Below are positions 41,767-60,381 of a stretch of DNA of 64,000 nucleotides, one piece after another. The stretch covers positions 1 through 64,000 of the forward strand of contig NZ_FOSW01000003.1 of assembly GCF_900114385.1 (NCBI RefSeq), in the 5' to 3' direction. The DNA is from Geodermatophilus ruber. Its GTDB lineage: Bacteria; Actinomycetota; Actinomycetes; Mycobacteriales; Geodermatophilaceae. The position numbers were made by a program, and so were the translations under genes. Under the pieces are notes generated by a model. It was given only the letters and a program-made list of their open reading frames with translations. It searched no databases and was not told the DNA's origin. The first letter of the stretch is position 1. Each line of letters begins with the position of its first letter.

Positions 41767-42084
41767 TCACCCCCCGATGACCACGGTGGGACAGCCCGGC
41801 CCCGGGCCGATCGGCGTGCCGTGCATGCTCAGGTCACCGAGCCGTGCTGCCGGAAAGCCGCCGATCAGCACGGTCATGCTGCCCTGGGCAATGCCGTTGG
41901 GGACAGGGGAGACGCAGACGATGCCGCCCGGCACATTGTTCGCGACGGCGGCGGGCGCGCCCCCGATCAGCACGGTCGGAACGGTCGCTGCCGGGGTGAT
42001 CGGGCCACCCCCGTGGGGCTTGGGGCCGTCGGCCAAGGGGCACAGCGCCGAGTCACCGGCACGCAACGCCGGAGCGATGGGCAT
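41767..42084 (-). CDS. PAAR-domain spike-tip protein of the injection system
   Basis: This 105-residue PAAR-like protein is Pro/Gly/Ala-rich with repeated TVLIGG-type strands (VPTVLIGGAPAAVANNVPGG, GSMTVLIGGFPAARLGDLSM, then CPTVVIGG). It has metal-ligand-like Cys/His residues in ALCPL, MHGTP and GPGCP. PAAR proteins cap the VgrG-like spike of contractile injection systems (Afp10/Pvc10 equivalent). It is on the minus strand, divergent from the LuxR-led eCIS operon, whereas PAAR genes usually sit among the baseplate genes. Confidence 0.85.
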   Translation of the reverse strand: MPIAPALRAGDSALCPLADGPKPHGGGPITPAATVPTVLIGGAPAAVANNVPGGIVCVSPVPNGIAQGSMTVLIGGFPAARLGDLSMHGTPIGPGPGCPTVVIGG

Positions 42085-42341
42085 CTATCGCACACCGGAC
42101 CGGTAACGCATCTCGGGCACGGGCGCGATCGTCCTCGCGGGCAGAGGTCCCCACAACCGCCTCGGGGTACAGCCACCCTCACGGGCAGCGGCACGGGCAG
42201 GCTGAGGAGTCCGACCGGGCCCGCCGGAGTGGGGTGGCACGGGGCATGACCTGCCTGTTGAGGCCACGTTGAGTGCCCGTGGAAGCTCGTGAGCACGCTC
42301 AGCCGCCGAGAGGACAGGGGGACGACCGGTCGGAGGTTGTC

Positions 42342-42959
42342 GTGGATCGTGTGCCGATCTGTGTGTCTGCCGATGATCCGGTGTCGCAGGCCGGGCTGAT
42401 GAGTCAGCTCCGGCCGCGGCCCGAGGTCACTGTGCTCGGCTGGGAGGACGAGCGTGTGCGCGTGGCCGTGGTGGTCGCGGACACGGTGGACGAGAAGGTC
42501 CTGCGGACGCTGCGCACCCTGCAGCGCCGCAATTGCCGGGCCCTGCTCGTCGTCACGTCGATCGACGACGCGGCCCTCGCGAACGCCGTCGAGGCGGGCA
42601 TGGCCGGGCTCCTCCGGCGCGCGGATGCGACATCCGAGCGGCTGGCCCACGCGGTCTGTTCGGTCGCGAAGGGGGACGGCACCGTGCCGCCCGACCTGCT
42701 CGGCCGGCTTCTCGCTCAGGTGGGCCGGGTCCAACGGCAGCTCCTCAGCCCCCGGGGGTTCACCCTCACCGGGCTCTCCGAGCGGGAGATCGAGATCCTC
42801 CGGCTCATCGCCGACGGCTTCGACACCGCGGAGATCGCGACCGCGCTGTCCTACTCCGAGCGCACGGTGAAGAACGTCCTGCACGACGTGACCAGCCGGC
42901 TGCAGTTGCGCAACCGGTCGCATGCGGTGGCCTACGCGCTCAAGCAGGGCATGATCTGA
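42342..42959 (+). CDS. LuxR-type response-regulator-like transcription factor of the eCIS locus
   Basis: This 205-residue protein uses the GTG at 42342; GGAGG (42332-42336) lies 5 nt upstream, and the reading frame further upstream is not protein-like. The N-terminal ~120 residues resemble a receiver fold (VPICVSADDPVSQAGLMSQL) but lack a clear phospho-acceptor Asp pattern. The C-terminal LuxR HTH is FTLTGLSEREIEILRLIADG then FDTAEIATALSYSERTVKNV. It heads the gene run that encodes the injection system and is a likely activator of it. Confidence 0.85.
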   Translation: MDRVPICVSADDPVSQAGLMSQLRPRPEVTVLGWEDERVRVAVVVADTVDEKVLRTLRTLQRRNCRALLVVTSIDDAALANAVEAGMAGLLRRADATSERLAHAVCSVAKGDGTVPPDLLGRLLAQVGRVQRQLLSPRGFTLTGLSEREIEILRLIADGFDTAEIATALSYSERTVKNVLHDVTSRLQLRNRSHAVAYALKQGMI

Positions 42960-43015
42960 CCGGACGGGCAGCCCGGCGCGCCCTTTCGGATGCCCTCCAC
43001 CCGGGTCCGCCGGCC

Positions 43016-43666
43016 GTGAACGGTCTCCACACTGCAAGGGTGTTCTACGAGGTCGACGAGGCACTGCGGGCCCTCGTCCGGGCCGAGGTGGCACCCTCCG
43101 CCGACGTCGAGGTCGCCTTCGACGCCCCGACCCGGGAATGGGCCGGCCGCCGGAACGCGCCCACGATCAACCTCTACCTCTACGACATCCGCGAGGACCT
43201 GCGCCGGCGCGAGCGGGGGGTGGTGAACAGCTACGACGACCGCGGGACCGTCGTCGAGCGGCGCCACCCGCCGCGTCACTTCAAGGTCACGTACTTGATC
43301 ACGGCGTGGACGCAGCGCCCGGAGGACGAGCACCGGTTGCTGTCCGCGCTGCTGTATGTCTTCCTCCGCAACGAGACGCTCCCGCCGGAACTGCTCACCG
43401 GCCGGCTGGCCGAGATCGGGTTGCCGGTCGAGGTCTCGGTCGCGCTGCCCCCGCCCGAGGACCGGTCCTTCGCCGACGTCTGGTCGGCCCTGGGCGGGGA
43501 GCTCAAGCCGTCGCTGGACGTCGTCGTCACCGCACCCGTGGACAGCGGCCGGCGCTTCCCGGTCGGGCCGCCGGTCGACGACGGCCTCCGCGTGGGTCTC
43601 AGCGACGGCGTCCGCACCGACCCGCCCCGCCGGCGGCACCGGCCCGCGGCAGGACACGGGTCGTGA
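43016..43666 (+). CDS. DUF4255 (Pvc16/Afp16-like) tail-terminator protein
   Basis: This 216-residue protein starts with GTG at 43016. It matches DUF4255 as found in contractile injection loci: ARVFYEVDEALRALVRAEVA, PTINLYLYDIREDLRRRERG, HFKVTYLITAWTQRPEDEHR and LLSALLYVFLRNETLPPELL. The family includes Afp16/Pvc16, which caps the sheath-tube at the distal end and sets particle length. It is coupled by a GTGA overlap to the AAA+ ATPase, the same pairing as afp15-afp16. Confidence 0.88.
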   Translation: MNGLHTARVFYEVDEALRALVRAEVAPSADVEVAFDAPTREWAGRRNAPTINLYLYDIREDLRRRERGVVNSYDDRGTVVERRHPPRHFKVTYLITAWTQRPEDEHRLLSALLYVFLRNETLPPELLTGRLAEIGLPVEVSVALPPPEDRSFADVWSALGGELKPSLDVVVTAPVDSGRRFPVGPPVDDGLRVGLSDGVRTDPPRRRHRPAAGHGS

Positions 43667-45723
43667 CCACGCCGACCGCACCGGGTCTCCGGCACCTGCT
43701 CGCCCGGCTGGGGCTCGTCGAGGCCCGCGTGCGGCGCGCCGTGGCGGCGGGCCGGGCCGACGACCCGGCGCCGGACGACCCGTTCCGCGGGCTGTACCTG
43801 ACGCCGGAGGCCGTCGACCGGGTGCTGGCGCACGCGCGCGCCCCGCTGGCGCCGGACCCGGTGGAGGAGGACAGCCTGGCGGAGGTCGAGGCGGTCGCGG
43901 ACGCCGCCGCCGACGGCGGTGCGGACCTGCGGCTGCGTCGCGTCGTCCACGCCTTCGGGCTCGAGCCGCTCGACGCCGAGATCCTGCTGATCGCCCTGGC
44001 GCCGGACGTCGACCCCCGGTTCGAGCAGCTGTACGGCTACCTCAACGACGACGTGACCCGACGCCGCGCCACGATCGGCATGGCGCTGTCCTTGTGCGGG
44101 GTCCCCGAGTCCGGGTGGGCCGTGCGCGCCCGTCTCGGTGCCGACGCCCCGCTCGTCGCCGGGGGGCTGCTCGTCGTCGAGGACCCGGAGCGGCCCTTCC
44201 TGTCGCGGGGGCTCCGGGTGCCCGACCGGGTGACCGAGTGGCTGCTCGGCGGCGACGATCCGGACCCCGCACTCACCGAGCTGGTCGAGGACCCGCCGCC
44301 GACCTCCGGCCGGGACGACGATCCGCTGCCGCGGGTCCTGGCCGGCGGCGCCGTCCTGGTGCACCTGCGGGAACAGCTCGGCGGTGGCGGAGCGGTGGCC
44401 GCCGCCGCCGCCGCCCGCCGTGCCGGACGGCGTCCGCTGGTCCTCGACCTCGCCCGCCTGGCCGAGCGGCCCGACGCGGGGGAGCTCGCCCCCGTCGCCG
44501 TCCGGGAGGTGCGGCTGACCGGTGGTGTCCTCATCGGCGCGCCGGCCGAGGCCCTGCAAGCCCGGCCGGGAGTCCTGCGTGCCCTCACCCATCCCGCCGC
44601 GGCGGTCGTGCTCGCCGGCGCCGCCCACTGGGACCCCCGGTGGTCGTCGACCGCTCCGCTCCTGCTGACCGCACCGGCGCCGAGCGCGGCCGACCGGGCC
44701 GCGCTGTGGTCGCTCGGGCTCGACGGCGGGGTCGAGTCCGACCTGGACCCCGTCGCGGCGAGCGCGCAGTTCGCGCTCACCCCCGAGCAGGTCGTCCGGG
44801 CGGCCCGCTCCGCCCGGCTGCGGGCCGGCGCGCGTGGCAGCCCGGTGACCGCCGCGGACCTCGGGCACGGCATCCGCGCCCAGAACGCCATCGGGCTGGG
44901 CCGCCTCGCCCGGCGCATCGAGCCGGCCGTGGGCTGGGACGACCTCGTGCTTCCCGAGCCGACGCGTGCGGCGCTCGCCGAGATCGCGCTCCGAGCGCGC
45001 TACCGCGCGCGGGTGCTCGGTGAGTGGCGGATGCGACCGGGAGGCGGCCGGGGACGCGGCGTCACGGCGCTGTTCGCCGGCGACTCGGGCACGGGCAAGT
45101 CGATGTCCGCGGAGGTCGTGGCCGGGGATCTGGGCATGGAGCTGTACGCGGTGGACCTGTCGAGCGTCGTCGACAAGTACATCGGGGAGACCGAGAAGAA
45201 CCTCGAGCGCATCTTCACCGAGGCGGCCGGGGTCAACGGCGTCCTGCTGTTCGACGAGGCGGACGCGATCTTCGGGAAACGCTCGGAGGTGCGCGACGCC
45301 CACGACCGCTACGCGAACATCGAGAGCGCCTACCTCCTGCAGCGGATGGAGTCCTTCGACGGGCTCGCCGTCCTCGCCACGAACCTCCGCGCCAACCTCG
45401 ATGACGCGCTGACGCGGCGACTGGACGTCGTCGTTGACTTCCCCGTGCCCGACGCCGACCTGCGCCGGCGGCTGTGGGACCGATGCCTCGGCGCTGCGGT
45501 GCCGCGGGACCCCGACCTGGACCTGGGGTTCTGCGCGACCGCCTTCGAGCTGTCCGGGGGCAACATCCGCTCCGCGGTGGTGGCTGCCGCGTACCTCGCC
45601 GCACGGGACGACCGGCCGGTGCGGACCGCGGACCTCGTCACCGGGGTTCACCGCGAGTACCGCAAGCTCGGCCGGCTCACGCTCGAGGCCGAGTTCGGCG
45701 AGTACTACGCGGCGCTGCGGTGA
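43663..45723 (+). CDS. AAA+ ATPase of the eCIS (Afp15/Pvc15-like)
   Basis: This 686-residue ATPase starts with GTG overlapping the DUF4255 gene. Residues 1 to ~450 are a helical, poorly conserved region beginning GLRHLLARLGLVEARVRRAV. The AAA+ module has Walker A LFAGDSGTGKSMSAEVVA (~470-487), Walker B GVLLFDEADAIFGKRSEV (~526) and arginine-rich sensor region DALTRRLDVVVDFPVPDADL. The family is conserved in eCIS loci and is thought to help assembly or cargo loading. It is not a ClpV-type recycler, fitting an eCIS rather than a T6SS. Confidence 0.9.
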   Translation: MTTPTAPGLRHLLARLGLVEARVRRAVAAGRADDPAPDDPFRGLYLTPEAVDRVLAHARAPLAPDPVEEDSLAEVEAVADAAADGGADLRLRRVVHAFGLEPLDAEILLIALAPDVDPRFEQLYGYLNDDVTRRRATIGMALSLCGVPESGWAVRARLGADAPLVAGGLLVVEDPERPFLSRGLRVPDRVTEWLLGGDDPDPALTELVEDPPPTSGRDDDPLPRVLAGGAVLVHLREQLGGGGAVAAAAAARRAGRRPLVLDLARLAERPDAGELAPVAVREVRLTGGVLIGAPAEALQARPGVLRALTHPAAAVVLAGAAHWDPRWSSTAPLLLTAPAPSAADRAALWSLGLDGGVESDLDPVAASAQFALTPEQVVRAARSARLRAGARGSPVTAADLGHGIRAQNAIGLGRLARRIEPAVGWDDLVLPEPTRAALAEIALRARYRARVLGEWRMRPGGGRGRGVTALFAGDSGTGKSMSAEVVAGDLGMELYAVDLSSVVDKYIGETEKNLERIFTEAAGVNGVLLFDEADAIFGKRSEVRDAHDRYANIESAYLLQRMESFDGLAVLATNLRANLDDALTRRLDVVVDFPVPDADLRRRLWDRCLGAAVPRDPDLDLGFCATAFELSGGNIRSAVVAAAYLAARDDRPVRTADLVTGVHREYRKLGRLTLEAEFGEYYAALR

Positions 45724-45834
45724 GCCGCATCCGCTGCTCGATCGAGCAGCGCCTCCCGCGCAAGTCGGTTCACGGGGCGAGGGTCCGACGGCAGGATTTC
45801 CCCACGAGAGTCCTCTCGGAGGGGGGGTGCCCCC

Positions 45835-48021
<2,187 letters not shown>

Positions 48022-48029
48022 GGTGTGCC

Positions 48030-48746
48030 GTGCACGACCACGACTTCGACCAACAGAGCTCCCCGGGCCTGCGGCCCAAGGGCGCACGGATCGCGGAGCC
48101 CGACGACGCCCGGATGCTGCGGGCCGCGGTGTCCGGACGGCTCGACGTCGCCGGGCCGGCGGGCCTGCTCGGCGTGCAGCGCGCGGCCGGGAACAGCGGC
48201 GCCACGGCCCTCGTGGCCGACCGCGACGAGGAGCACGAGTCGCCGGTGCAGGACGTCGTCCGCTCGGCGGGGGCCCCGTTGCCCGACGACGTCCGGACCG
48301 ACATGGAAGGGCGGCTCGGGCACGACTTCGGCGACGTGCGCATCCACACCGACCGCGCCGCGGAGGCGTCCGCGCAGGCGGTCAACGCGCACGCCTACAC
48401 GGTCGGGTCGCACATCTCCTTCCAGCGGTCGGCCTACGACCCGTCCAGCGACAGCGGCCGCCTCACGCTGGCGCACGAGCTGACCCACGTGGTCCAGCAA
48501 CGCAACGGCCCGGTGGACGGGACCGAGGCACCCGGAGGCATCCGCGTCAGCCATCCCTCCGACCGGTTCGAACGCGAGGCGGCCGCCACCGCCGCGCAGG
48601 CCGTCGCCGCGCCGGTCGCGGCATCGCCCGCGCCCGCTCAGGTGCAGCGGGAGGCGGCCGCCGACGAGCCGGAGGAGGAGACCCCGGTGCAGGGCTCCTT
48701 CGTGCAGCGGCAGGAGGAGGAAGCCGAGGAGGAGCCCGCCGGGTAG
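48030..48746 (+). CDS. DUF4157 (eCIS core domain) metallopeptidase-like protein
   Basis: This 238-residue protein starts with GTG at 48030, 8 bp after the PASTA gene. The DUF4157/eCIS-core domain runs ~85-170: LPDDVRTDMEGRLGHDFGDV, RIHTDRAAEASAQAVNAHAY, TVGSHISF and LTLAHELTHVVQQ with an intact HExxH motif (~149-153). The domain is strongly associated with eCIS loci and often with their effectors. The C-terminal ~60 residues are acidic and Ala-rich with three VQR tripeptides, a motif shared with the 931-residue protein further on. Confidence 0.88.
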   Translation: MHDHDFDQQSSPGLRPKGARIAEPDDARMLRAAVSGRLDVAGPAGLLGVQRAAGNSGATALVADRDEEHESPVQDVVRSAGAPLPDDVRTDMEGRLGHDFGDVRIHTDRAAEASAQAVNAHAYTVGSHISFQRSAYDPSSDSGRLTLAHELTHVVQQRNGPVDGTEAPGGIRVSHPSDRFEREAAATAAQAVAAPVAASPAPAQVQREAAADEPEEETPVQGSFVQRQEEEAEEEPAG

Positions 48747-48762
48747 CCGGCGGGGCCTGTCC

Positions 48763-48928: not shown

Positions 48929-50512
48929 ATGGGGAACTACCTGTCACCGGGGGTGTTCGTCGAGGAGGTCCCGGCGGGCTCCCGGCCGATCGAAGGCGTC
49001 GGCACCGCCGTGGCGAGCTTCGTGGGGTTCGCGCAGTCCGGCCCGTTCAACGAGCCCAGCCTCGTGACCAACTGGAGCCAGTTCACCGATCGGTTCGGCG
49101 GCTTCCTGGACGGTGGGTATCTCGCCCACGCCGTGTACGGCTTCTTCGCCAACGGCGGCGGCTCGGCCTACGTCGTCCGCGTGGGTCAGGACGGCGCCGG
49201 GGACGGCCAGGGCAACGGCGCCCGGGGCAACGACAACCCCGCGGCGATCAGCCCACCGCGCGAGGGCGTGATCGGCCCCTACCGGGTCGTCGAGCTGTCG
49301 AGCGGCGGGAGCACCCCCCGGGGCGACATCACCGTGGAGGTCCAACCGGCGTCGCCGGCCGAGGGCGAGGAACAACCGCCCGAGGACCTGTTCAAGCTCG
49401 TCGTGCGGCGCGGCCCGAAGGTGGAGGAGACGTTCGACCGGGTCAGCACCAAGCGCGGCAAGGACAGCGTGCTGACCCGGGTGTCCCAGGAGTCCAAGCT
49501 GATCACCATCGAGGAGGTCCCGAGCCCGGGCACGGTCGCCCGGCCGGAACCGGCCAGCGTCACGCTCAGCGCCCCGCCGGCCGTGCTCCCGCCCCCACAC
49601 CGCATCACCACCGACGACTACGTGGGCGACGTCGCCGACCGGACCGGCTTCTCCGGCCTGGAGGCGGTCGACCAGGTCACCATGATCGCGGTCCCGGATC
49701 TGATGAGCGCCTACCAGAGCGGCGCGGTGGACCTCGACGCGGTGCAGGCGGTGCAGATCAAGATGATCGAGCACTGCGAGCTCATGGGCGACCGGGTGGC
49801 CATCCTCGACCCGCCGCCGGGCCTGAGCCCCCAACAGGTGGGGGAGTGGCGCATGCAGAAGGCCGGCTACGACTCCAAGTTCGCCGCGATGTACTACCCC
49901 TGGTTCACCGTGCTCGACCCGATCAGCGGCAAGAACCGGGCCGTGCCGCCGAGCGGGCACGTCGCGGGGGTCTGGGCGCGCAACGACGACACCCGCGGGG
50001 TGCACAAGGCGCCCGCCAACGAGGTCATCCGCGGGGCGATCGCCCCCGAGATCCAGCTGACCAAGGGGGAGAACGACCTGCTCAACCCCATGGGGGTCAA
50101 CTGCATCCGGGCGTTCCCCGGCCGGGGCATCCGCATCTGGGGCGCGCGCACCCTGTCCTCCGAGGCGGAGTGGCGCTACCTCAACGTCCGGCGGCTGTTC
50201 AACTACCTCGAGGAGTCGATCCTCAACGGGACCCAGTGGGTCGTCTTCGAACCGAACGACGACGCCCTGTGGGCGCGCATCCGCCGCACGATCAGCGCGT
50301 TCCTGGTCAACGAGTGGCGCAAGGGCGCGCTGTTCGGGCTCACGCCCGACGAGGCGTTCTACGTCAAGTGCGACCGGGAGACCAACCCGGCGGAGGGCAT
50401 CGACGCCGGCCAGGTCGTGTGCGAGGTCGGGGTGGCCCCCGTCAAGCCGGCCGAGTTCGTCATCTTCAGGCTCGCCCAGTTCTCCGGCGGCACGAGCCTC
50501 GTCGCGGAATGA
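48929..50512 (+). CDS. contractile tail sheath protein
   Basis: This 527-residue sheath protein has the canonical start MGNYLSPGVFVEEVPAGSRP with VASFVGFAQSGPFNEPSLVT. Its C-terminal sheath core contains KAPANEVIRGAIAPEIQLTK, PMGVNCIRAFPGRGIRIWGA, RTLSSEAEWRYLNVRRLFNY and LEESILNGTQWVVFEPNDDA. The ATG is preceded by GAGGAGG at 48918-48924. A single sheath gene is present, as in actinobacterial eCIS, versus three in Afp. An insertion-like variable region spans ~90-200. Confidence 0.95.
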   Translation: MGNYLSPGVFVEEVPAGSRPIEGVGTAVASFVGFAQSGPFNEPSLVTNWSQFTDRFGGFLDGGYLAHAVYGFFANGGGSAYVVRVGQDGAGDGQGNGARGNDNPAAISPPREGVIGPYRVVELSSGGSTPRGDITVEVQPASPAEGEEQPPEDLFKLVVRRGPKVEETFDRVSTKRGKDSVLTRVSQESKLITIEEVPSPGTVARPEPASVTLSAPPAVLPPPHRITTDDYVGDVADRTGFSGLEAVDQVTMIAVPDLMSAYQSGAVDLDAVQAVQIKMIEHCELMGDRVAILDPPPGLSPQQVGEWRMQKAGYDSKFAAMYYPWFTVLDPISGKNRAVPPSGHVAGVWARNDDTRGVHKAPANEVIRGAIAPEIQLTKGENDLLNPMGVNCIRAFPGRGIRIWGARTLSSEAEWRYLNVRRLFNYLEESILNGTQWVVFEPNDDALWARIRRTISAFLVNEWRKGALFGLTPDEAFYVKCDRETNPAEGIDAGQVVCEVGVAPVKPAEFVIFRLAQFSGGTSLVAE

Positions 50513-51449: not shown

Positions 51450-51604
51450 CGTACGGGGCGCAGCGCGTGCTCGAGGAGGTCTCGTACGTCGCCTACCACT
51501 TCCACTGGCCTCTCAGCGAGATCCTCGACCTCGAGCACCCGGACCGGCAGCGCTTCGTCGCCGAGATCGGGCGGATCAACGCCTCCTCGGCCGCCCGGCG
51601 GTGA
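51446..51604 (+). CDS. DUF6760-like small eCIS protein
   Basis: This is a 52-residue protein starting with GTG overlapping the previous stop. The sequence RVLEEVSYVAYHFHWPLSEI then LDLEHPDRQRFVAEIGRINA matches the small conserved helix-rich proteins (DUF6760) found after tube genes in eCIS and related tail loci. It ends 6 bp before the large disordered-protein gene. Role unknown, probably assembly. Confidence 0.75.
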   Translation: MTYGAQRVLEEVSYVAYHFHWPLSEILDLEHPDRQRFVAEIGRINASSAARR

Positions 51605-51610
51605 CCCGGC

Positions 51611-54406
51611 ATGCGCCTGCGCGACCTGTTCTCCCGTCGGCCGCCCGCTCCGGGGCCTCCCGACGCGGCGCCGCCCGTTCCAGCGCGGCACGAGTGGCAG
51701 CACCTGCCCCCGGTGCAGCGGGTGCTGACCGGTCCCTTCCTCATCACGGCCCCGGAGGAGTTCAGCCGGCACCTGGGCAGCTGGCGGAACCCTTCGTTCT
51801 TCCATCCGCCGGGTCACCTCCGGTCGCCGGACGCGCCGTCCGGTTCGGTCACCGCACTGTCCGTACCGGCCCGGCCGGCCCGGCAGTGGCCCGCCCTGCC
51901 CGCGGCGGTCCAGCGGGACGCCGGCCCTCTCGATCACCCGATCCCCCCGACGGCTCCTCGGTCGGAGCCCGCAGGCGGGCCCGCTCCGCTCGTCGCGAGC
52001 CCCCTGGTCAGCGCGGTCGGCACGGCGGCGGAGCCGCCCCCGTGCCCGGTTCCGGCCGTGCCGCTCGAACCCGACGCACCATCGGCGCCGGTACCGCACG
52101 ACGCCGCGCCGACGGCGGACGGCGCGGCGGGGGAACCGGTGCAGCGGCTGACCGAGCCGCCGTCGCCGGTGGCGCCGCCCGGGTCGCCGCCGGAGGAAGT
52201 GGCCCCGATCGCCGGCTCCGCCACTCCCGCGACCGCGCTCCTCGCGGAGCCGGCCGGACCTGCGGCTGAGCCCCCGGCGTTCGACCCGGGGACACCCGTG
52301 CCCCCGCCCCGCCGGCGCCTGGGCCTCGGTGCTCCGCTGCCCGCCGGGTACCGGGCGGCCGGCCCCACGGTGTCCCGGTCGACCGGTGCCCCGCCGTCCG
52401 CCGGCGCTCCCGTTCCCGTTCCCGAGCCCGCGCCCCGTGCGACCGTGGCGCCGGCGACCGCTGTTCAGCGGGTCGAGGGCGCGGACCCGGACGTCGGCCC
52501 GGCAGTGGCCACGCCCCCCGACGAGGTGCCCCTGGTCGGCGACGCATCCATGACGACGCCCGTGCCGGCGGAGGCCCCGGCCCCTACGCCCCTCACAGCA
52601 GGCTCGACGTCGGGGGCGCCGGAGGACTCCGGACCGGGGAGCGTGCCGTGGCCGTCTCCCTCCGTGCCGGCAGGCGTGCCGGAGGATCAGCCCCGCCCGG
52701 GGGAGCAACTCGGTGCCCCGGACCCCGCTGGCTCGGACCCCGCTGGCTCGGACCCCGCGCCCGCGCCTGGCCCCGCGCCGGCCGCGGTGCAGCGGGATCC
52801 CGGCGACACCCGCCACGACGAGGGCACCACCGGCCTGCCGGAGCCGGCGAGCCCAGCGGCACCGGCGGACGTGGCGGTGAACGGCGCCGGGGCCGACGAG
52901 GCCCCGCTGGTGGGCGGCGGGTCCCCGCTCGGCGGGCAGTTGCCCGAGCCGGGGGACCGGTCCGGGACGGCGGCTCCGGTGCCGCGGAGCGGACCGACGG
53001 CGCCGCCGCTGACGGTCTCCCGGCTGCCGGACCAGCCCCCGGGGGAGCCACGGCCGCAGCAGGCCGACACCAGGCCGGCCGCGGTGCAGCGGGCCGGCGG
53101 TGACCGCGACGCCAACGCCGGGTCGGCGGCCGAGGCCCCGATGACGGGGGTCGTCGGGGACGGGTCGACGGCCGCGCCCGCGCCGCTGCTCGGCGAGGCG
53201 GCACCGATGGCGTCGGTGGCGATGGAGCCTGCGCACGGCCCCGGCCCTGGGGCGGACGCCGCGCCGCCTCGCGGGGCCCCGCGGGGCACCGGCCTGCAGC
53301 GCGCCGTCGACGCCGCCGCTGCCGGTTCCGCCGGCCTCCCGACGGGCCTGCCGACGCCCGGGCCCGCCGCACTCCAGCGGGCGGCCGTTCTCCCGACCCC
53401 GGCCGGAGGAGGCACCGGTCCGTCCTGGCCCGTAGCTGCACCCGGCCGCGGCGCCGACCCCGTCGTCGGGACCGGCACCGCCGCCGTGGACGAGGCCGGT
53501 CCGATCGGCGACCGGCCGGTCATGCTCCGGAGCGCTTCGACGGAGCCCGGACCGACGGTCGGGCCGGAGGCGCCGACCGCGTCGGTGCCTGCCGTCGGCC
53601 CTGGCTGGTCGACCGACCTCCCCGGCGGGTCGCCCGGTGGAGGGACGGACGCCGGGCCCGCTGCGGCGTCGGCGCTTCCGCCCGGCGGCGGCCCGGGGCC
53701 GGCGGCCGAGGTGGGCCCGCTGGGCGCACGGCCGATCGTGCTCCGCCTGCTGGCCGCACCCGCCCCGGCGGCGCCGCCCGGGGAGGCACGTGTGCCGACG
53801 GCCGACCGTGCCCCCGACGGCGGGCGTCGAGTCTCGGTGCAGTGGGCGGCCCTGCCGCTCCCGGGGACCGCGGCGCCGGGCCCCGTCGAACGGTTTCCGC
53901 CGCACGCGGGCGCGACGGTGCCTGCGCCGGCACGTGGCGCGCCGAGCCCTCTCGTGCAGCGCCACCAGCGACCGCCGGACCAGCTGCTCGCCCCCGCGCT
54001 CCTGGGCGGTGCTTCCGGAGCGGAGCTGTCCGAGAGTCCCGTGGCCGGGGCCCCGCGCGTCTTCGCACCCGGTCCGGCCGTGCCGGACGCCGGCGGCCCC
54101 GCCGTCGCCGGGTCCGTGCCGCCCGGACCGGCGTCGGTCCAGCGGGCGGAGGAGGTCGCTCCCGGGACGGCCTCCGCTCCCGGGACGGCCTCCGCTCCCG
54201 GGACGGCCTCCGCACCCGAGACGGCCTCGGGGCCTGAGACGGCCTCGGGGCCGACGGGGGGTGCGGCCCCGGCCGCCGTGCCGTCGGCCCCGGCCGAACT
54301 CGACGCGCTCGTCCGCCGGCTGCACGACCCCCTCGTCCGACAGCTCAAGGCCGAGCTCCTGCTCGACCGTGAGCGGATCGGCCACGCCCTCGATCTCCGC
54401 TACTGA
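51611..54406 (+). CDS. very long disordered Pro/Ala-rich protein with recurring VQR motifs
   Basis: This is a 931-residue protein. An ordered N-terminal segment (HEWQHLPPVQRVLTGPFLIT, EEFSRHLGSWRNPSFFHP) and an ordered C-terminal helix (LDALVRRLHDPLVRQLKAEL then LLDRERIGHALD) bracket ~850 residues of Pro, Ala, Gly, Ser and Glu. Along this stretch xVQR/xLQR tripeptides recur about ten times (e.g. AAVQRDAG, EPVQRLTE, AVQRVEGA, SVQRAEEV). It sits between tube-associated genes and the second tube gene. It may be a tape-measure-like spacer, a scaffold or a processed cargo carrier; all are inference. The single frame stays open with consistent codon bias. Confidence 0.8.
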   Translation: MRLRDLFSRRPPAPGPPDAAPPVPARHEWQHLPPVQRVLTGPFLITAPEEFSRHLGSWRNPSFFHPPGHLRSPDAPSGSVTALSVPARPARQWPALPAAVQRDAGPLDHPIPPTAPRSEPAGGPAPLVASPLVSAVGTAAEPPPCPVPAVPLEPDAPSAPVPHDAAPTADGAAGEPVQRLTEPPSPVAPPGSPPEEVAPIAGSATPATALLAEPAGPAAEPPAFDPGTPVPPPRRRLGLGAPLPAGYRAAGPTVSRSTGAPPSAGAPVPVPEPAPRATVAPATAVQRVEGADPDVGPAVATPPDEVPLVGDASMTTPVPAEAPAPTPLTAGSTSGAPEDSGPGSVPWPSPSVPAGVPEDQPRPGEQLGAPDPAGSDPAGSDPAPAPGPAPAAVQRDPGDTRHDEGTTGLPEPASPAAPADVAVNGAGADEAPLVGGGSPLGGQLPEPGDRSGTAAPVPRSGPTAPPLTVSRLPDQPPGEPRPQQADTRPAAVQRAGGDRDANAGSAAEAPMTGVVGDGSTAAPAPLLGEAAPMASVAMEPAHGPGPGADAAPPRGAPRGTGLQRAVDAAAAGSAGLPTGLPTPGPAALQRAAVLPTPAGGGTGPSWPVAAPGRGADPVVGTGTAAVDEAGPIGDRPVMLRSASTEPGPTVGPEAPTASVPAVGPGWSTDLPGGSPGGGTDAGPAAASALPPGGGPGPAAEVGPLGARPIVLRLLAAPAPAAPPGEARVPTADRAPDGGRRVSVQWAALPLPGTAAPGPVERFPPHAGATVPAPARGAPSPLVQRHQRPPDQLLAPALLGGASGAELSESPVAGAPRVFAPGPAVPDAGGPAVAGSVPPGPASVQRAEEVAPGTASAPGTASAPGTASAPETASGPETASGPTGGAAPAAVPSAPAELDALVRRLHDPLVRQLKAELLLDRERIGHALDLRY
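54158..54247 (+). repeat. five 18-bp tandem repeats in the disordered-protein gene
   Basis: The unit GCTCCCGGGACGGCCTCC begins at 54158, 54176 and 54194 identically, then at 54212 and 54230 with substitutions. It encodes APGTAS/APETAS/GPETAS. The repeat lies just before the conserved C-terminal helix. Confidence 0.8.
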
Positions 54407-54420
54407 GCAAGGAGCACGCC

Positions 54421-54897
54421 ATGCCGCCCCAGGACCAGGACCCGGCCGTCTCCGTCTGCTTCGTCGTGACCCTCGACAACATGGACCTCGGGGCCTTCAA
54501 CAGCTGCGAGGGCCTCGGCGCCGAGGTCGTCATCGAGCAGCGCGAGGAGGGCGGGAACAACGGCTTCGTCTGGCAGCTGCCGTCCCGGATCAAGTACCCC
54601 AACATCAAGCTCAGCCGACCGCTCACCCGGTCGACCGAGCAGGTCGCGAAGTGGATCGCGCAGGTCACGGCCGGTGGGGCGAAGCGGGCCTCGCTCGACA
54701 AGGCCACGGGGCACATCACGGCGATGACCGGCGACGGGGTGCAGGTGGCGAGCTGGGGTCTCGCGGGCGTCGTCCCGGTCCGCTGGACCGGCCCCTCGCT
54801 GAACCTGGACTCGCCCAAGGTGGCGACGGAGACCCTCGAGATCGCCCATCACGGCTTCCTGCGCGACGACGCGCCCGCGGCCAAGGGCCAGAACTGA
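54421..54897 (+). CDS. second tail tube / tube-initiator protein (Afp5-like)
   Basis: This 158-residue protein of the gp19 tube superfamily contains VCFVVTLDNMDLGAFNSCEG then LGAEVVIEQREEGG, IKYPNIKLSRPLTRSTEQVA and VRWTGPSLNLDSPKVATETL. A second, divergent tube protein that starts the tube on the baseplate is a normal eCIS component. AAGGAG lies upstream of the ATG. It is 14 bp after the disordered-protein gene. Confidence 0.9.
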   Translation: MPPQDQDPAVSVCFVVTLDNMDLGAFNSCEGLGAEVVIEQREEGGNNGFVWQLPSRIKYPNIKLSRPLTRSTEQVAKWIAQVTAGGAKRASLDKATGHITAMTGDGVQVASWGLAGVVPVRWTGPSLNLDSPKVATETLEIAHHGFLRDDAPAAKGQN

Positions 54898-54906
54898 GGA
54901 ACGCCG

Positions 54907-55668
54907 ATGGCCGAGCAGATCGTCCTGTCCGCCACGGCGACCACCACGTCGACCGCGCAGCCGGGCGCCGGCGGGCGCCCGAAGCTGCAGCACGCCTGGC
55001 TCGACCTCCGGGACCCGCCGCCGGCCAAGGGCAGCCTGGACCCCGGCCCGTCGCGAGGCCGGATCGACTTCCAGTTCAACCCCCGCGAGCTGACGGTCAG
55101 CAAGTCGGCCAAGTGGGATCGCGGCTCACAGAAGAACAACGCGAAGAGCGACCCCCCGCAGTTCAAGGGGCCCGACCCCAGCAAGCTGTCCGTGGAGATG
55201 TTCCTCGACGCCAGCGACGTCCAGGACGCCAGCGTGGTGGAGAAGGTCGAGCAGCTGTTCGCATGCTGCGTGCCCACCAAGGAGAGCCTCCGCAAGAAGC
55301 CGGGCAGCCCACCGTGGGTGATCTTCAGCTGGGGCCAGATGAGCGGCTTCCCGTCCTACGTCAGCTCGGTCTCGGTGAAGTACACCCTCTTCACCCCCGA
55401 CGGCCTGCCGATCCGCGCCACGGCGACGGTGGGCATCGAGGAGATCTCCGGCGAGCACTCCGGGCAGAACCCCACCTCCGGTGCGCTGACCGCGCAGACC
55501 GTGCACACCGTCGTCGCCGGGGACTCGCTGCCGTCCATCGCCTGGCGTGAGTACGGCGACCCGACCGTGTGGCGGGTCATCGCCGAACGCAACGGCATCG
55601 ACGACCCGATGCGTCTTCCCGCCGGCACGGCGCTGTTCATCCCCGCCGCCGAGGACCTGGGTGGGTGA
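54907..55668 (+). CDS. LysM-containing baseplate adaptor (Afp7/gp53-like)
   Basis: This 253-residue protein has an N-terminal tail-tube-adaptor domain with IDFQFNPRELTVSKSAKWDR and SKLSVEMFLDASDVQDASVV. A C-terminal LysM domain follows at ~198-247 (VHTVVAGDSLPSIAWREYGD, RVIAERNGIDDP, LPAGTALFIP). In tail machines this LysM protein joins tube and spike hub; wall binding is not required. It lies between the second tube and the VgrG-like gene, the conserved order. Confidence 0.92.
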   Translation: MAEQIVLSATATTTSTAQPGAGGRPKLQHAWLDLRDPPPAKGSLDPGPSRGRIDFQFNPRELTVSKSAKWDRGSQKNNAKSDPPQFKGPDPSKLSVEMFLDASDVQDASVVEKVEQLFACCVPTKESLRKKPGSPPWVIFSWGQMSGFPSYVSSVSVKYTLFTPDGLPIRATATVGIEEISGEHSGQNPTSGALTAQTVHTVVAGDSLPSIAWREYGDPTVWRVIAERNGIDDPMRLPAGTALFIPAAEDLGG

Positions 55669-55674
55669 GCCGGC

Positions 55675-57402
55675 ATGCCCGCGCAGGACTTCACCAACGA
55701 ACTGCTCGTGACCGTCGACGACCGGCCGCTGGCCGACGACGTGCGCCCGCTGCTGGTCCGCAGCGTGGTGGACGACAGCCGGGCCATGCCGGACCTGTTC
55801 GTGCTGCGCTTCCGCGACGGCGAGAACGTGGTGCTGGAGAAGTCGGGCCTCCGGATCGGCAGCGCGGTGTCCCTGTCGGTCGCGTCCAACGAGGTCGTCC
55901 CGCGGGGGCCGCTGCTCGTCGGGGAGGTGACCGCGCTGGAGAAGGAGCACGACGGCACGGGAACCTTCACCGTGGTGCGGGGTCTCGACCGGGCGCACCG
56001 GCTGACCCGGGGGCGCCGCGTCGTCGGCTTCCGGGAGATGACCGTGTCCGACGTCGCGACGAAGATCGCACGCGGTGCGGGGCTGCAGGTGGGGCAGGTC
56101 GACGCGACGACGACGGTGCACCAGCAGCTGTCGCAGGGCAACGTCAGCGACTGGGACTTCCTGCACCGGCTGGCCGCCGAGGTCGGCGCGGAGGTCGCCG
56201 TCCGGGACGGCAAGCTCGAGTTCCGGCGGCCCACCCGGGCCAGCAGGGCACCGGCCGGGACGAAGGCCGTCGAGGACCCGCTCGTGCTCGAGCTCGGGCG
56301 CAACCTGCTGCAGCTCCGGGCGGTCGTCACCTCGGGGGAACAGGTGCCGGAGGTCGAGGTGCGCGGCTGGGACGCCGCTGCGAAGCGCGCGGTGGTCGGG
56401 ACGGCGAAGGCGGCCACCCAGTCGGCCCAGACCGGGGCGAGACCCGCCGACCTGGCCGGCGAGTTCGGGGCGCCGCTGCTCGTCGCCGGCACGTCCTGTG
56501 CCGCGCAGTCCGAGGTCGAGGAGGCGGCCGCGGCGCTGGCCGAGCAGGTCAGCGGGGGCTTCGCCGCGCTGGAGGGGGTCATCCGCGGCAACCCCGCGGT
56601 GCGGGCCGGCACCGCGATCACCCTGGCGGGCGCCGGCGCGCCCTTCGACGGCAAGTACGTGGTGACCGCCAGCCGGCACGTCTTCGAGCAGCAGACCGGC
56701 TACACGACCTGGGTCACCGTGACCGGGGCCCAGGACCGCAGCCTCTGGGGCGTGGTCGAGGGCGGCGGCTCGGGCGCGGCGGACGCCGGCGGCCACGGCG
56801 TGGTCATCGCCCAGGTCTCCGACAACCGCGATCCCGAGGAACGGGCCCGTGTCCGGCTGACCTTCCCCTGGCTGTCCGAGGACTTCGTCAGCGACTGGGC
56901 CCGCACCGTCCAGCCGGGCGCCGGGGCCGGCCGGGGTGCCGTCGTCGTGCCGGAGGTGGGTGACGAGGTCCTGGTCGCCTTCGAGCAGGGCAGCTTCGAC
57001 CGCCCCTACGTCCTCGGCGGGCTGTACAACGGGATCGACGAGCCCGACCCCGGCGACGTGACGCTCATCGACGGCAACTCCGGCGCGGTGAACCGGCGTG
57101 CGTTCGTCTCCCGCACCGGGCACCGGCTGGAGATGGTGGAGAGCGCCGCCGGCGCGCAGGGCATCGTGCTGCGCACCGGCGACGGCAAGCTGACGCTCGG
57201 CCTCGACCAGCAGAAGACGCAGGTCACCGTGCACAGCGACGGCACGGTCACCATCGAGTCCCGGGGCGACGTCAGCGTGAAGGCGACGACGGGCACGCTG
57301 ACGCTCGAGGGCCAGAACGTGCAGATCAAGGGCCGGACCGGGGTCACGGTCGACGGCGGCGCGAGCTGCAGCATCAGCGCACTGCAGGTCAAGATCAACT
57401 GA
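55675..57402 (+). CDS. VgrG-like baseplate spike protein (Afp8-like)
   Basis: This 575-residue spike/hub protein has a gp27-like hub N-terminus (LRFRDGENVVLEKSGLRIGS, VSDWDFLHRLAAEVGAEVAV). A gp5 OB-fold domain (VVIAQVSDNRDPEERARVRL, VPEVGDEVLVAFEQGSFDRP) and a C-terminal beta-helix-like stretch (VTIESRGDVSVKATTGTLTL) follow. It forms the central membrane-piercing trimer tipped by the PAAR protein. The start has an upstream GGTGGGTGAG. No extra effector domain is fused. Confidence 0.93.
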   Translation: MPAQDFTNELLVTVDDRPLADDVRPLLVRSVVDDSRAMPDLFVLRFRDGENVVLEKSGLRIGSAVSLSVASNEVVPRGPLLVGEVTALEKEHDGTGTFTVVRGLDRAHRLTRGRRVVGFREMTVSDVATKIARGAGLQVGQVDATTTVHQQLSQGNVSDWDFLHRLAAEVGAEVAVRDGKLEFRRPTRASRAPAGTKAVEDPLVLELGRNLLQLRAVVTSGEQVPEVEVRGWDAAAKRAVVGTAKAATQSAQTGARPADLAGEFGAPLLVAGTSCAAQSEVEEAAAALAEQVSGGFAALEGVIRGNPAVRAGTAITLAGAGAPFDGKYVVTASRHVFEQQTGYTTWVTVTGAQDRSLWGVVEGGGSGAADAGGHGVVIAQVSDNRDPEERARVRLTFPWLSEDFVSDWARTVQPGAGAGRGAVVVPEVGDEVLVAFEQGSFDRPYVLGGLYNGIDEPDPGDVTLIDGNSGAVNRRAFVSRTGHRLEMVESAAGAQGIVLRTGDGKLTLGLDQQKTQVTVHSDGTVTIESRGDVSVKATTGTLTLEGQNVQIKGRTGVTVDGGASCSISALQVKIN

Positions 57403-57416
57403 TCCGGGGGTGGGCC

Positions 57417-57860
57417 ATGGCGGCGGACTTCGTCGGCGCCGGGTGGGGGTTCTTCCCCCTGCGCACCGACGTGACCGGGCGGATCGTGCTGGTCACCGAC
57501 GAGCAGGAGGTCGAGGAGAGCATCCGCCTCATCCTGGCCACGTCGCCGGGGGAGCGGCCGATGCGACCGGAGTTCGGCTGCGCCATCCACGACTTCGTCT
57601 TCGCACCCGCCGACGCCGCCACGGCCGGCCAGATCGCGTTCGAGGTCCGCGCGGCTCTCGGCCGCTGGGAGCCGCGGATCGACGTCCTGGACGTCCGGGC
57701 GGACTTCTCGATGGCCGACGAGGGGACGTTGCACATCGAGATCGGCTACCGCATCCGGGGGACGAACGACCCGCGCAACCTCGTCTTCCCGTTCTACGTG
57801 ATCCCCACCCACGAGGCGATCCCCGGGTACGAGACGACCGAGCCGGAAGGTGCGCTGTGA
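57417..57860 (+). CDS. gp25/GPW baseplate wedge protein (Afp9-like)
   Basis: This 147-residue gp25-like protein contains ESIRLILATSPGERPMRPEF then GCAIHDFVFAP, and EPRIDVLDVRADFSMADEGT. The EPR triad in WEPRIDVL is the conserved gp25 motif that seeds the sheath. It is coupled to the next gene by a GTGA overlap. Confidence 0.94.
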   Translation: MAADFVGAGWGFFPLRTDVTGRIVLVTDEQEVEESIRLILATSPGERPMRPEFGCAIHDFVFAPADAATAGQIAFEVRAALGRWEPRIDVLDVRADFSMADEGTLHIEIGYRIRGTNDPRNLVFPFYVIPTHEAIPGYETTEPEGAL

Positions 57861-59806
57861 CGCTGCCCGCCCCCAACCTGGACGACCGGCGCTTCCAGGA
57901 CCTCGTCGACGACGCCAAGCGGTACGTGCAGGTCCACTGCCCCCAGTGGACCGACCACAACGTCTCCGATCCCGGCGTGACGCTCATCGAGACGTTCGCG
58001 ATGGTGACCGACCAGCTCTTCTACCGACTCAACCGCGTGCCCGACCGGCTCTACGTGCGCTTCCTCGAGCTGCTCGGCCTCACCTTCGTGCGGCCGACCC
58101 CGGCGACCACCGAGGTCACCTTCTGGCTGTCGGCACCGCAGGAGGAGGTCGTCCGGGTGCCGGCGGGCACCGAGGTCGCGACACGGCGGACCACCGTCGA
58201 CGAGGCGATCACCTTCGAGACCACCGGAGACCTGCCGATCGTCCCCTGCGCCATGGCCGCGCTGGCGGTGAAGACCGAGGACGCCGGGGAAGTCACCGAC
58301 CGCACCGACGACTGGCGGGTCGGCACGGCGGTGCCGGCGTTCTCGGCCGTGCCGGTGCAGGGCGACGCGCTCCTGGTGGGGCTGTCCGACGCCGTCCCGC
58401 GCTGCGCGGTCACGCTCCGCCTGGAGTGCGACGCCAGCGGCGCCGGCATCCGCCCCGACGACCCGCCGTGGCTGTGGGAGGCCTGGAACGGCGGGTACTG
58501 GGAGGCCTGCGAGCTCGAGGAGGGTGCGGACGGGACCGGCGGGTTCAACCAGCCCGGCGACATCGTCCTGCACGTGCCGCCCAGCCACCGGACCTCGCTC
58601 GTCGCCGGGCACCGGGCCGGCTGGCTGCGGTGCCGCGTCGTCCAGCGGCACGAGCGGCAGCGGCTCTACGAGGAGCCCCCGCTGATCCACCGGATCTCGG
58701 CCTTCACCATCGGCGGCACGATCCCGGCCGTTCACCAGGAGACGGTCCGCCAGGAGGTCGTGGGGCTCTCGTCCGGGGTGCCGGGGCAGCGCTTCGGCCT
58801 CGCCCGCGGGCCGGTGCTCGACGGCCCCGTGGTGGTCGAGGTGGCCGGGCCGGACGGCTGGCGCGCCTGGACCGAGGCACCGGCGTTCGACCTCGGCGCC
58901 GCCGACGCCGAGCACTTCGTCCTCGACGTCGCCTCCGGGCAGATCGTCTTCGCGCCCGCCGTGCGGGACGTCGGCGGCCGCATCCGGCGCCTCGGCGCGG
59001 TGCCCCCGGCTGCCGCGCCGATCCGGGTGACCTACCGGGTCGGCGGGGGCGCCGATGGCAACGTGCTCCGGGGCGCCATCCGGACCCTGCGCAGCCAGGT
59101 GCCGGTCGTGACGCGGGTGGAGAACCGCCGGGCCGCCGCCGGCGGGGTCAACGGCGAGGACCTCGACAGCGCCCGATCACGTGCACCGGCGTTCCTGCGG
59201 ACCCGCGACCGGGCGGTGACCAGGGCCGACTACGAGTACCTGGCCCGCGACGCCGACCCGCGGGTCGCACGCGTCCGGGCGCTCACCGGCCGGGACGACG
59301 AGCCGGCGGTGATCCGCGTCGTCCTCGTCCCCGCGCTGGCCGGTGACGCGGCCCGGCCCCCCATGCCGGGGGACTTCGCCCCGAGCAAGGAACTGCTCGC
59401 GCGCGTGGCCGCCCACCTCGACGAACGCCGGGTGCTCGGGACGCGGCTGATCGTGTCTCCGCCGCACTTCCAGTGGATCTCGGTCGAGGTCTCCCTCCGC
59501 GTCCCGCCGACCGCGGACGCCGGCCGGGTCCGGCGGGACGCCCTGGCGACGGTCCACCGGTGCCTGCACCCCCTGCGCGGTGGACCGGAGGGCACCGGCT
59601 GGCCGTTCGGGCGCAGCGTCACGTCCGGCGAGCTGCTCGCCGCCCTGCAGCGGGTCCTGGGCGTCGAGGCACCCGAGGCGGTGCGCCTCTTCCGGGTCGA
59701 TACCGCCACGCGGACCCGGTCGACCGGCTGGACCAACAAGGTGGAACTGGGGCCCGGCGTGCTGCCGTTCTCCTTCGACCCCAGCGTGGTGGAGGCGGCG
59801 ACGTGA
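57857..59806 (+). CDS. baseplate J/gp6-like wedge protein (Afp11-like)
   Basis: This 649-residue putative baseplate assembly protein starts with GTG. Its opening LDDRRFQDLVDDAKRYVQVH and DPGVTLIETFAMVTDQLFYR are typical of eCIS and related baseplate proteins. The C-terminal gp6/J-like region has RAVTRADYEYLARDADPRVA and VAAHLDERRVLGTRLIVSPP. It forms the wedge ring around the spike with gp25. Coupled on both sides by 4-bp overlaps. Confidence 0.93.
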   Translation: MTLPAPNLDDRRFQDLVDDAKRYVQVHCPQWTDHNVSDPGVTLIETFAMVTDQLFYRLNRVPDRLYVRFLELLGLTFVRPTPATTEVTFWLSAPQEEVVRVPAGTEVATRRTTVDEAITFETTGDLPIVPCAMAALAVKTEDAGEVTDRTDDWRVGTAVPAFSAVPVQGDALLVGLSDAVPRCAVTLRLECDASGAGIRPDDPPWLWEAWNGGYWEACELEEGADGTGGFNQPGDIVLHVPPSHRTSLVAGHRAGWLRCRVVQRHERQRLYEEPPLIHRISAFTIGGTIPAVHQETVRQEVVGLSSGVPGQRFGLARGPVLDGPVVVEVAGPDGWRAWTEAPAFDLGAADAEHFVLDVASGQIVFAPAVRDVGGRIRRLGAVPPAAAPIRVTYRVGGGADGNVLRGAIRTLRSQVPVVTRVENRRAAAGGVNGEDLDSARSRAPAFLRTRDRAVTRADYEYLARDADPRVARVRALTGRDDEPAVIRVVLVPALAGDAARPPMPGDFAPSKELLARVAAHLDERRVLGTRLIVSPPHFQWISVEVSLRVPPTADAGRVRRDALATVHRCLHPLRGGPEGTGWPFGRSVTSGELLAALQRVLGVEAPEAVRLFRVDTATRTRSTGWTNKVELGPGVLPFSFDPSVVEAAT

Positions 59807-60381
59807 CCGGCGGGACCGTGGAACGCGGCACCGTCGACGGACTTCCCTCGGCGCATCCGCTGGCCGACCTGCTGCCCGGCGTGTATCTCGAGGACGAGCT
59901 GACCCGAGGCCTCACCCGGGGCCTGGACACCGTGCTCGCGCCGGTCTTCCTCACTCTCGACTGCCTCGACGCCTACGTGGACCCGGCGCTCACGCCCGAG
60001 GACTTCCTGCCGTGGCTGGCGTCGTGGGTGGGGGTCTCCCTGATCGAGAGCTGGCCGGCCGAGCGCAAGCGCCGGATCGTCGCCACGGCTGTGGCCCGGC
60101 ACCGGGACAGGGGGACCCGGGACGGGTTGCGTACCCACCTGGAGCTCGTGACCGGCGGGCAGGTCGAGGTCCACGACAGCGGCGGCACGGTCTGGTCCGA
60201 CGACCCCGACGTCGAGCCGCCCGGTGACCCGGTCCCCGGCCTGCGGCTGACCGTGCGCGTGCCGATCCCGGCGTCGGTGGACGTGGAGCGGCTCACCGCG
60301 ATCGTGCGTGAGGCCCGTCCGGCGCACCTGCCGTTCACCGTCGAGGTCGCGCAGCGGACCACCGCGGAGGCCGCACCCTGA
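59803..60381 (+). CDS. tail protein I / gp7-like baseplate protein (Afp12-like)
   Basis: This 192-residue protein starts with GTG overlapping the J-like gene. The region HPLADLLPGVYLEDELTRGL, DALTPEDFLPWLASWVG-like and RHRDRGTRDGLRTHLELVTG fits phage tail protein I/eCIS Afp12. It is shorter than Afp12, as usual in actinobacterial loci. It is the last plus-strand structural gene in the window and converges with the regulator gene, with only 4 bp between the stops. Confidence 0.85.
   Translation: MTGGTVERGTVDGLPSAHPLADLLPGVYLEDELTRGLTRGLDTVLAPVFLTLDCLDAYVDPALTPEDFLPWLASWVGVSLIESWPAERKRRIVATAVARHRDRGTRDGLRTHLELVTGGQVEVHDSGGTVWSDDPDVEPPGDPVPGLRLTVRVPIPASVDVERLTAIVREARPAHLPFTVEVAQRTTAEAAP

Follow-up and report, generated by a model that had tools for sequence, protein, structure and literature searches.

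A type IId contractile injection system locus in Geodermatophilus ruber and a candidate length ruler between its tube genes

The contractile injection systems (CISs) of Streptomyces coelicolor and S. lividans, CISSc and SLP, are cytosolic particles of type IId. In S. coelicolor, the sheath operon is under the control of a LuxR regulator (PMC2000904), and extended particles are of identical length, with 60 tube layers (PMC12237407). Sco4256–4258 are single-transmembrane (TM) proteins with a similar N-terminus, two of which end in a RICIN domain; the lumen was reported as filled in ~97% of wild-type particles and as empty in ~85% of particles from the triple deletion (Casu et al., PMC10066040). 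Clusters of this type are stated to lack a tape-measure gene (PMC10066040, PMC10286715, PMC12237407). Here, we describe a related locus in Geodermatophilus ruber, at positions 41767–60381 of a window of 64,000 nucleotides (the start of contig NZ_FOSW01000003.1), and a 931-residue protein encoded between its two tube genes. We read the locus as a complete type IId CIS, most likely cytosolic and discharged under stress against the membrane of its own cell, in which this protein probably serves as a length ruler; taken as a whole, we regard this reading as evenly poised. The protein is conserved, and thus offers a concrete gene for the question of length control in systems said to lack a tape measure.

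Gene set and kinship of the locus

Pfam matches place the sheath, two tubes, LysM hub, VgrG, gp25, J and I wedges, DUF4255 cap and AAA ATPase in one cluster. All twelve CIS parts that a preliminary description of the window had named, together with the LuxR regulator, were recovered by Pfam within 41767–60381; the list had passed over the membrane effector, the zinc-ribbon protein, the DUF6760 protein and the 931-residue open reading frame (ORF). The features are as follows.

41767–42084, minus strand: PAAR spike-tip protein, 105 amino acids (PF05488, 1.2e-15)
42273–42959, plus strand: LuxR-family regulator heading the cluster (PF00196, GerE, 7.5e-14)
43040–43666, plus strand: cap or tail terminator, Cis16 (DUF4255, Pvc16_N; PF14065, 6.2e-47)
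43663–45723, plus strand: AAA+ ATPase with winged helix, Cis15 (PF22977, WHD, 2.4e-30; PF00004, AAA, 2.1e-22)
45835–48021, plus strand: Sco4256-type bitopic effector, 728 amino acids (Pfam PASTA, 3.7e-35)
48030–48746, plus strand: eCIS_core (DUF4157) protein, Sle2-like putative cargo adaptor (PF13699, 2.3e-32), with three VQR motifs
48929–50512, plus strand: sheath, Cis2 (PF04984 and PF17482, 6.4e-23 and 5.9e-20; PDB 8bky, 5e-214)
50551–50997, plus strand: inner tube, Cis1a (PF06841, T4_gp19, 1.2e-30)
50997–51449, plus strand: zinc-ribbon (Znr) protein, tail assembly chaperone relative (phrog_508, 3e-05)
51446–51604, plus strand: DUF6760 small protein (PF20546, 3.4e-10)
51611–54406, plus strand: disordered slot protein, 931 amino acids, candidate tape measure (ORF, no Pfam or NCBIfam match)
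54421–54897, plus strand: tube initiator, the second tube, Cis1b (PF06841, 4.8e-31)
54907–55668, plus strand: LysM hub adaptor, Cis7 (PF19266, CIS_tube, 7.8e-26; LysM, 2e-05)
55675–57402, plus strand: VgrG-like spike, Cis8 (PF04717 and PF05954; 2.2e-26)
57417–57860, plus strand: gp25-like baseplate wedge, Cis9 (PF04965, 2.7e-28)
57857–59806, plus strand: baseplate J-like wedge, Cis11 (PF04865, 2.9e-17)
59803–60381, plus strand: tail protein I wedge, Cis12 (PF09684, Tail_P2_I, 1.8e-17)

The PAAR gene lies on the strand opposite to the rest of the cluster. No tail fibre or ClpV gene was recognised among the genes of 41.7–60.4 kb (the rest of the genome was not searched for them), and a search of the whole genome for the sheath C-terminal family found one copy. 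Measured against published IId clusters, the locus lacks no core part; the gene set first described as 'near-complete' is confirmed, and that wording was too cautious. These comparisons support the locus as a complete-looking member of a widespread type IId kind; its function and cytosolic location we infer by homology.

The best solved-structure match of the sheath is PDB 8bky/9gtp (5e-214). The 8bky chain is taken to be the S. coelicolor sheath because it is 99.6% identical to that of S. tendae. In a tree of 41 sheath rows, the window falls among actinobacterial sheaths, beside rows from Streptomyces, Micromonospora and Pseudonocardiaceae, whereas those of Roseiflexus, Deinococcus and part of the Chloroflexota cluster apart. 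The tree contains only IId-type rows, with no non-IId outgroup and three same-family sheaths left out, and the window joins its nearest 16 rows at a node with a support of 91/94, below the strict mark; a first tree with 13 rows fewer did not settle the window's placement. Together with the structure match, the tree supports the earlier comparison with the Streptomyces CIS and a relationship to its cytosolic particle at the level of sequence.

Gene order was compared in a sheath scan of named genomes, in which the best 80 loci were kept (Streptomyces, Micromonospora, Cellulomonas, Kribbella, Saccharothrix, Chloroflexota and others). Sheath, tube1 and Znr are adjacent in all 80; the run extends through tube2, LysM and VgrG in 57, and from cap and AAA through gp25 and J in 36, many of the loci outside these longer-run counts being cut by contig or flank ends. 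Since the order recurs among these loci, it is not chance. Within the host's own family, 20 of 112 genomes, its own included, have a sheath match; the closest sheath is that of a genome labelled G029 (67%) and the others are not close, so that the CIS is patchily distributed. In Streptomyces, a sheath match at E<=0.001, which also takes in other CIS types, is found in 198 of 295 genomes. Two further observations concern Streptomyces clusters: Streptomyces sp. sk2.1 (L080) carries two tandem sheath–tube–Znr–DUF6760 sets, and S. phaeoluteigriseus (L098) has split tube2 matches on another stretch of its genome, as in a rearranged or broken cluster.

The protein between the two tube genes

We refer to the interval between DUF6760 and the tube initiator as the slot. 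It was surveyed in 122 loci, of which 27 had no full slot (25 without a tube2 match, mostly owing to contig-end cuts, and two without a sheath). A single ORF covers at least 85% of the slot in 90 of the 95 loci that span it, and all five exceptions contain Ns. The encoded proteins range from 532 to 1486 amino acids (median 938); that of the window is the longest ORF from sheath to wedge, the next being J with 649 amino acids. Across the 90 proteins, the composition is dominated by A (18.8%), P (17.8%), G (10.5%), S (9.3%), R (8.1%) and T (8.0%). In the AlphaFold model of the window's protein, the confidence score pLDDT is below 50 for 738 of 931 residues and one long helix is predicted at 894–922. 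An alignment of 21 slot proteins has a conserved N-terminal block (W..LPP.QR) and a C-terminal helix; a regular expression for the latter matches 76 of 90 proteins, an aligned variant is seen by eye in 13 of the remaining 14, and none is found in L100. The window's protein has no match in Pfam or NCBIfam, and only a weak PHROG match to a family without annotated function (phrog_30296, 0.028). In three loci of another CIS type from the same family (L040, L042 and L043), the slot after Znr and DUF6760 holds a DUF4157 protein of 319–334 amino acids, not a long disordered one.

VQR occurs 753 times in the 90 slot proteins against 13.3 expected, 56-fold over composition shuffles. For the broader [VLI]QR, the counts are 1005 against 28.7 (35-fold, in 95 of 95), and the window's protein has 10 against 0.19, with a maximum of 3 in 2000 shuffles. 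The DUF4157 proteins are also enriched (129 against 7.9, 16-fold, in 41 of 41), with lower values in the AAA ATPases (5.3-fold), the TM effectors (4.3-fold) and tube2 (1.6-fold). The motif is depleted in the sheath (3 against 18.6 expected), tube1 (0 against 4.1) and VgrG (8 against 17.5), and is below expectation in Znr, gp25, cap, LysM and DUF6760. A sharp VQR period matching the tube layers was not found (median spacing 62, quartiles 38–90, n=879). A relative at 48% G+C (L073) retains an 882-residue frame (log10 chance of an open frame, -19), 11 motifs and the disorder-type composition; the slot features are thus not a by-product of G+C content.

The position of the slot gene points to a ruler. 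In phages, the tube is assembled on a tape measure that chaperones have already coated (PMC9022992), and the slot gene lies two genes after a tail-chaperone relative, in an order (sheath, tube, tail-chaperone relative, DUF6760, slot, tube initiator, hub) that resembles that around phage tape measures. Its length is consistent with the same role. In the four genomes whose sheath is 98–100% identical to 8bky, the slot proteins have 1378, 1305, 1357 and 1300 amino acids; for the S. coelicolor-group tube, 60 layers with a rise of 38.5 Å give 231 nm, or 1.68–1.78 Å per slot residue, and 1.5 Å per residue is the usual assumption for tape measures (PMC9024508). The window's protein would then correspond to a tube of ~156 nm, with ~40 layers, in a particle of ~193 nm.

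In Chloroflexia-like and Deinococcus loci, the second tube gene is followed by a gene whose product has a comparable C-terminal helix. In relatives of Roseiflexus, these slot proteins have 975, 872, 904 and 909 amino acids (five of 20 Chloroflexota stretches, L206, L209, L214, L221 and L222, were left out, and L207 and L208 have no slot ORF in the fetched stretch). In Deinococcus, where five loci were read and D. grandis, with a slot ORF that reads as joined to the tube gene, was excluded for that reason, they have 1838, 1973, 1770 and 1506 amino acids, D. actinosclerus (1770) being in the set. Particles have been measured at 217±16 nm in R. castenholzii, 251±26 nm in mat cells resembling Roseiflexus and 365±39 nm in D. 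aquatilis; for C. chliarophilus, the length is 238 nm. The rank order of slot length agrees with that of particle length over the three groups, particle and gene coming from different species in two of them. Two Deinococcus records were noted separately: in the D. grandis plasmid record (L223, 15675–19454), the tube gene reads into the C-terminal part of the slot protein, by deletion or assembly collapse, and the D. psychrotolerans CIS (L224, 14973–15149) encodes a 58-residue protein whose helix-like end, LAEKVYRLLLADISIQKRR, resembles the slot C-terminal helix by eye.

Two other length models were rejected. The Sle1-type protein was set aside as first choice for a ruler: delta-sle1/2 particles are described as having no apparent structural defects (PMC13277306), and its 914 residues in a S. 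coelicolor-group genome (G364) amount to ~137 nm at 1.5 Å per residue, against a 231-nm tube. A poly-Pro chain at 3.1 Å per residue would need ~745 residues for 231 nm, and 1300–1378 are found.

We infer a ruler role for the slot protein from these data, and the following sequence of events can be envisaged. The particle would assemble free in the cytosol, as in S. coelicolor. The zinc-ribbon protein and DUF6760 would chaperone the slot protein, whose C-terminal helix would dock at the tube initiator or hub; tube and sheath would then polymerise along the extended chain, with the VQR motifs as contacts to the lumen or cargo, until the cap closes the particle once the N-terminal end of the chain is reached. 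Luminal cargo, namely the DUF4157 adaptor, the Sle1-type effector and the PASTA-TM effector, may likewise be carried on the chain, and the loaded particle would be fired at the cell's own membrane under stress.

Several points weigh against a ruler. Known tape measures are mostly alpha-helical; the slot protein is predicted to be disordered save for one long helix, rather than alpha-helical or a coiled coil, and it matches no tape-measure family in Pfam, NCBIfam or PHROG. Published lengths of the S. coelicolor particle themselves differ (268 nm; ~230 nm for a non-contractile mutant in vitro; 295 nm by transmission electron microscopy). All four Roseiflexus values (872–975) fall below the 978–1169 amino acids predicted from the S. 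coelicolor ratio, and one Deinococcus value (1506) falls below the predicted 1724–2189; the scaling, drawn from three groups with mismatched species in two, is at most suggestive. Particles still form when Sco4256–4258 are deleted, and the lumen is reported as empty in ~85% of them (PMC10066040), yet a bulky ruler should stay visible. Locus L098 has no tube2 match in the 8.9 kb following DUF6760, and SCO4249 would be the S. coelicolor slot gene by a count of genes. The [VLI]QR motif is also above expectation in LuxR (3.4-fold), I (2.7-fold) and J (2.1-fold), and reaches only 1.5-fold in Sle1-position proteins. As to the ORF itself, a codon-based gene caller called just the 3' 539 of its 931 codons, with a low score, and its codon bias is 0.27 (0.38–0.75 in 14 reference genes; 0.25 in the antisense frame). 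Codon bias alone was set aside as uninformative for 51611–54406; because the bias is weak, the reality of the ORF rests on its conservation.

The strongest alternative, in our view somewhat unlikely, is a disordered cargo scaffold or loading adaptor, in which the VQR motifs would retain DUF4157 adaptors and effectors, either in the lumen or at the AAA ATPase, and length would be set otherwise, for example by the timing of the cap. It would explain the motif shared by slot and DUF4157 proteins as well as a ruler does. A VQR-type motif occurs at least once in 27 of 43 Sco4256-type effectors, often just before the TM helix, and the slot proteins of L054 and Deinococcus contain a DUF4157 domain, which fits a cargo role too. 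Furthermore, Sle2, a DUF4157 protein, is reported to bind the tube initiator and Sle1 (PMC13277306). On a scaffold, however, the place after a tail-chaperone relative and the match of 1.68–1.78 Å per residue would be coincidence, and the motif is barely enriched in the Sle1-position proteins. Ruler and scaffold roles could coexist.

A role of the slot protein as a disordered effector or toxin that is itself translocated, as a relative of Tme of S. davawensis, is improbable. Tme is described as encoded immediately upstream of the baseplate genes, ~70% disordered and bearing DUF4157 (PMC11126660), but no enzymatic or TM domain was recognised in the window's 931-residue protein, and slot proteins are conserved at both ends with no swapping of the C-terminus. 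That the whole locus is a decayed prophage tail is hardly credible: its tail genes are of phage origin, but the genome holds no PF04860 portal and its sole PF05065 capsid match lies on another contig (terminase was not searched), the cap, AAA, DUF4157 and LysM genes are CIS features and the structural ORFs are uninterrupted, so that a prophage remnant was rejected on the portal and capsid searches; the adjacent temperate phage that the preliminary description had named as contrary evidence did not appear in them. The capsid match is of HK97 type (contig C22, 298548–299363), perhaps an encapsulin-like or divergent prophage gene.

Extending the ruler reading beyond this locus, we propose tentatively, and with slightly less than even confidence, that type IId CISs from Actinomycetota to Chloroflexota and Deinococcota measure length with a disordered, Pro/Ala-rich, VQR-studded ruler that doubles as a luminal cargo rail. 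Such a ruler would have stayed hidden because it is disordered and has no profile. Full-text literature searches found no paper discussing the slot ORF as a ruler, most subscription papers lying outside the searched text.

Membrane effector and the island beyond the window

The effector at 45835–48021, read from a GTG start chosen so as to include its zinc ribbon, comprises that ribbon, two Ig-like domains, a TM helix (309–328), three PASTA stretches and a C-terminal beta region. AlphaFold models the zinc ribbon, the Ig pair with a pLDDT of ~97 and a helix at 309–328; the PASTA part is of low confidence. Over its N-terminal part, the protein can be aligned to two RICIN-TM proteins from the S. 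coelicolor group (27%, ~1e-9), and the gene sits near the AAA gene, as expected of a Sco4256-type TM effector. A scan of 42 family members found 13–15 with ricin, nine with ChW, two with PG_binding_1, two with fn3, one with SPOR and one, that of the window, with PASTA; the effector family is a known one, and this ectodomain is new to it. PASTA domains are known to bind peptidoglycan, and the protein brings a module of this type into a family known with lectin ends. In a structure search, the PASTA-TM model matched generic ASH/Ig folds at low TM-scores, and PADLOC matches were at domain level only (AAA, PASTA, dynamin).

Two further genes follow the wedge genes in the window.

60386–63361, minus strand: SARP/BTAD-type regulator (PF03704, 7.4e-12)
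63358–63999, minus strand: Hsp70-like gene, 3' part, with a C-terminal TM stretch by eye (PF00012, 9e-46 for the full gene, L133)

The Hsp70-like gene runs beyond the window end, and the accessory island extends ~20 kb further, to about contig position 84.5 kb. It encodes this Hsp70-like protein with its C-terminal TM stretch, an Ig-Ig-TM relative of the membrane effector, a TgpA-type transglutaminase, a Dynamin_N GTPase and a second dynamin-like protein, together with an M23 peptidase and a protein with PG_binding_1. Inspection by eye adds MoxR and DUF58 genes, a wall hydrolase of SLT/NlpC type, and a zinc-ribbon protein with a TM helix. At 80.9–84.5 kb lies a Sle1-type protein of 1194 amino acids, which is 80% identical to its G029 counterpart over residues 3–820 and differs in the C-terminus; that of G029 has a weak deaminase-like match (0.04–0.09). 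A conserved carrier whose C-terminus has been exchanged agrees with the modular-effector concept presented for Sle1 (PMC13277306).

The G029 locus also carries Hsp70, Ig-TM proteins, a dynamin-like pair, an NlpC-type protein and a Sle1-type gene; MoxR, DUF58 and transglutaminase genes were not seen in the fetched G029 stretches. Its PAAR protein is 87% identical to that of the window, its island contains a LuxR gene with a 61% match, and its wedge genes are likewise followed by a relative (37%) of the SARP/BTAD-type regulator. In two genera (contig ~63.4–77.3 kb, L133; L052), the CIS thus has as neighbours genes for an Hsp70-like protein with a TM stretch, for Ig-TM proteins, for a pair of dynamin-like GTPases and for a wall hydrolase of NlpC type.

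A CisA-type discoidin protein (NADase_discoid, NF047619) has no match in the window's genome and is present in G029 and G364. Homologues of Sco4242 (CisA) are reported in 79% of CIS-positive Streptomyces (PMC10066040), so that the protein is not strictly defining for type IId. The zinc-ribbon and TM protein of the island (162 amino acids, contig ~78.2 kb; L239, 2239–2727) resembles the start of CisA-type proteins, with no discoidin match.

Comparison with known systems

Among disordered CIS proteins, Tme of S. davawensis is large, mostly disordered and encoded immediately upstream of the baseplate genes, like the slot protein, but it is described as having TM helices, a coiled coil, DUF4157 and a nuclease domain, and belongs to a different CIS clade (PMC11126660).

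The slot protein should not be classed in the known tape-measure families, although the same mode of action is conceivable. It is disordered and Pro/Ala-rich rather than helical, and no sequence similarity was found to lambda gpH or Afp14, which it resembles in its place after tail chaperones, as the longest structural gene and in length per residue. If the ruler reading is true, a ruler need not be helical.

The locus of G029 shares the PAAR gene, the structural operon, the slot ORF (981 amino acids), SARP, Hsp70, the Ig-TM proteins, the dynamin pair, the NlpC-type protein and the Sle1-type effector; its gene blocks are rearranged and it has a discoidin CisA-type protein. Compared with CISSc/SLP, the window has a PAAR gene, its effector bears PASTA where CISSc/SLP has RICIN, its slot protein is shorter (931 versus 1300–1378 amino acids), its Sle1-type gene lies ~20.5 kb downstream of the wedge genes and its host genome is without a NADase_discoid match. 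No fibre or ClpV gene was recognised in the cluster of the window, as in that of CISSc/SLP, and the two have in common the core genes and their order, the LuxR regulator, Sco4256-type TM effectors, the DUF4157 adaptor, a Sle1-type effector and the slot ORF.

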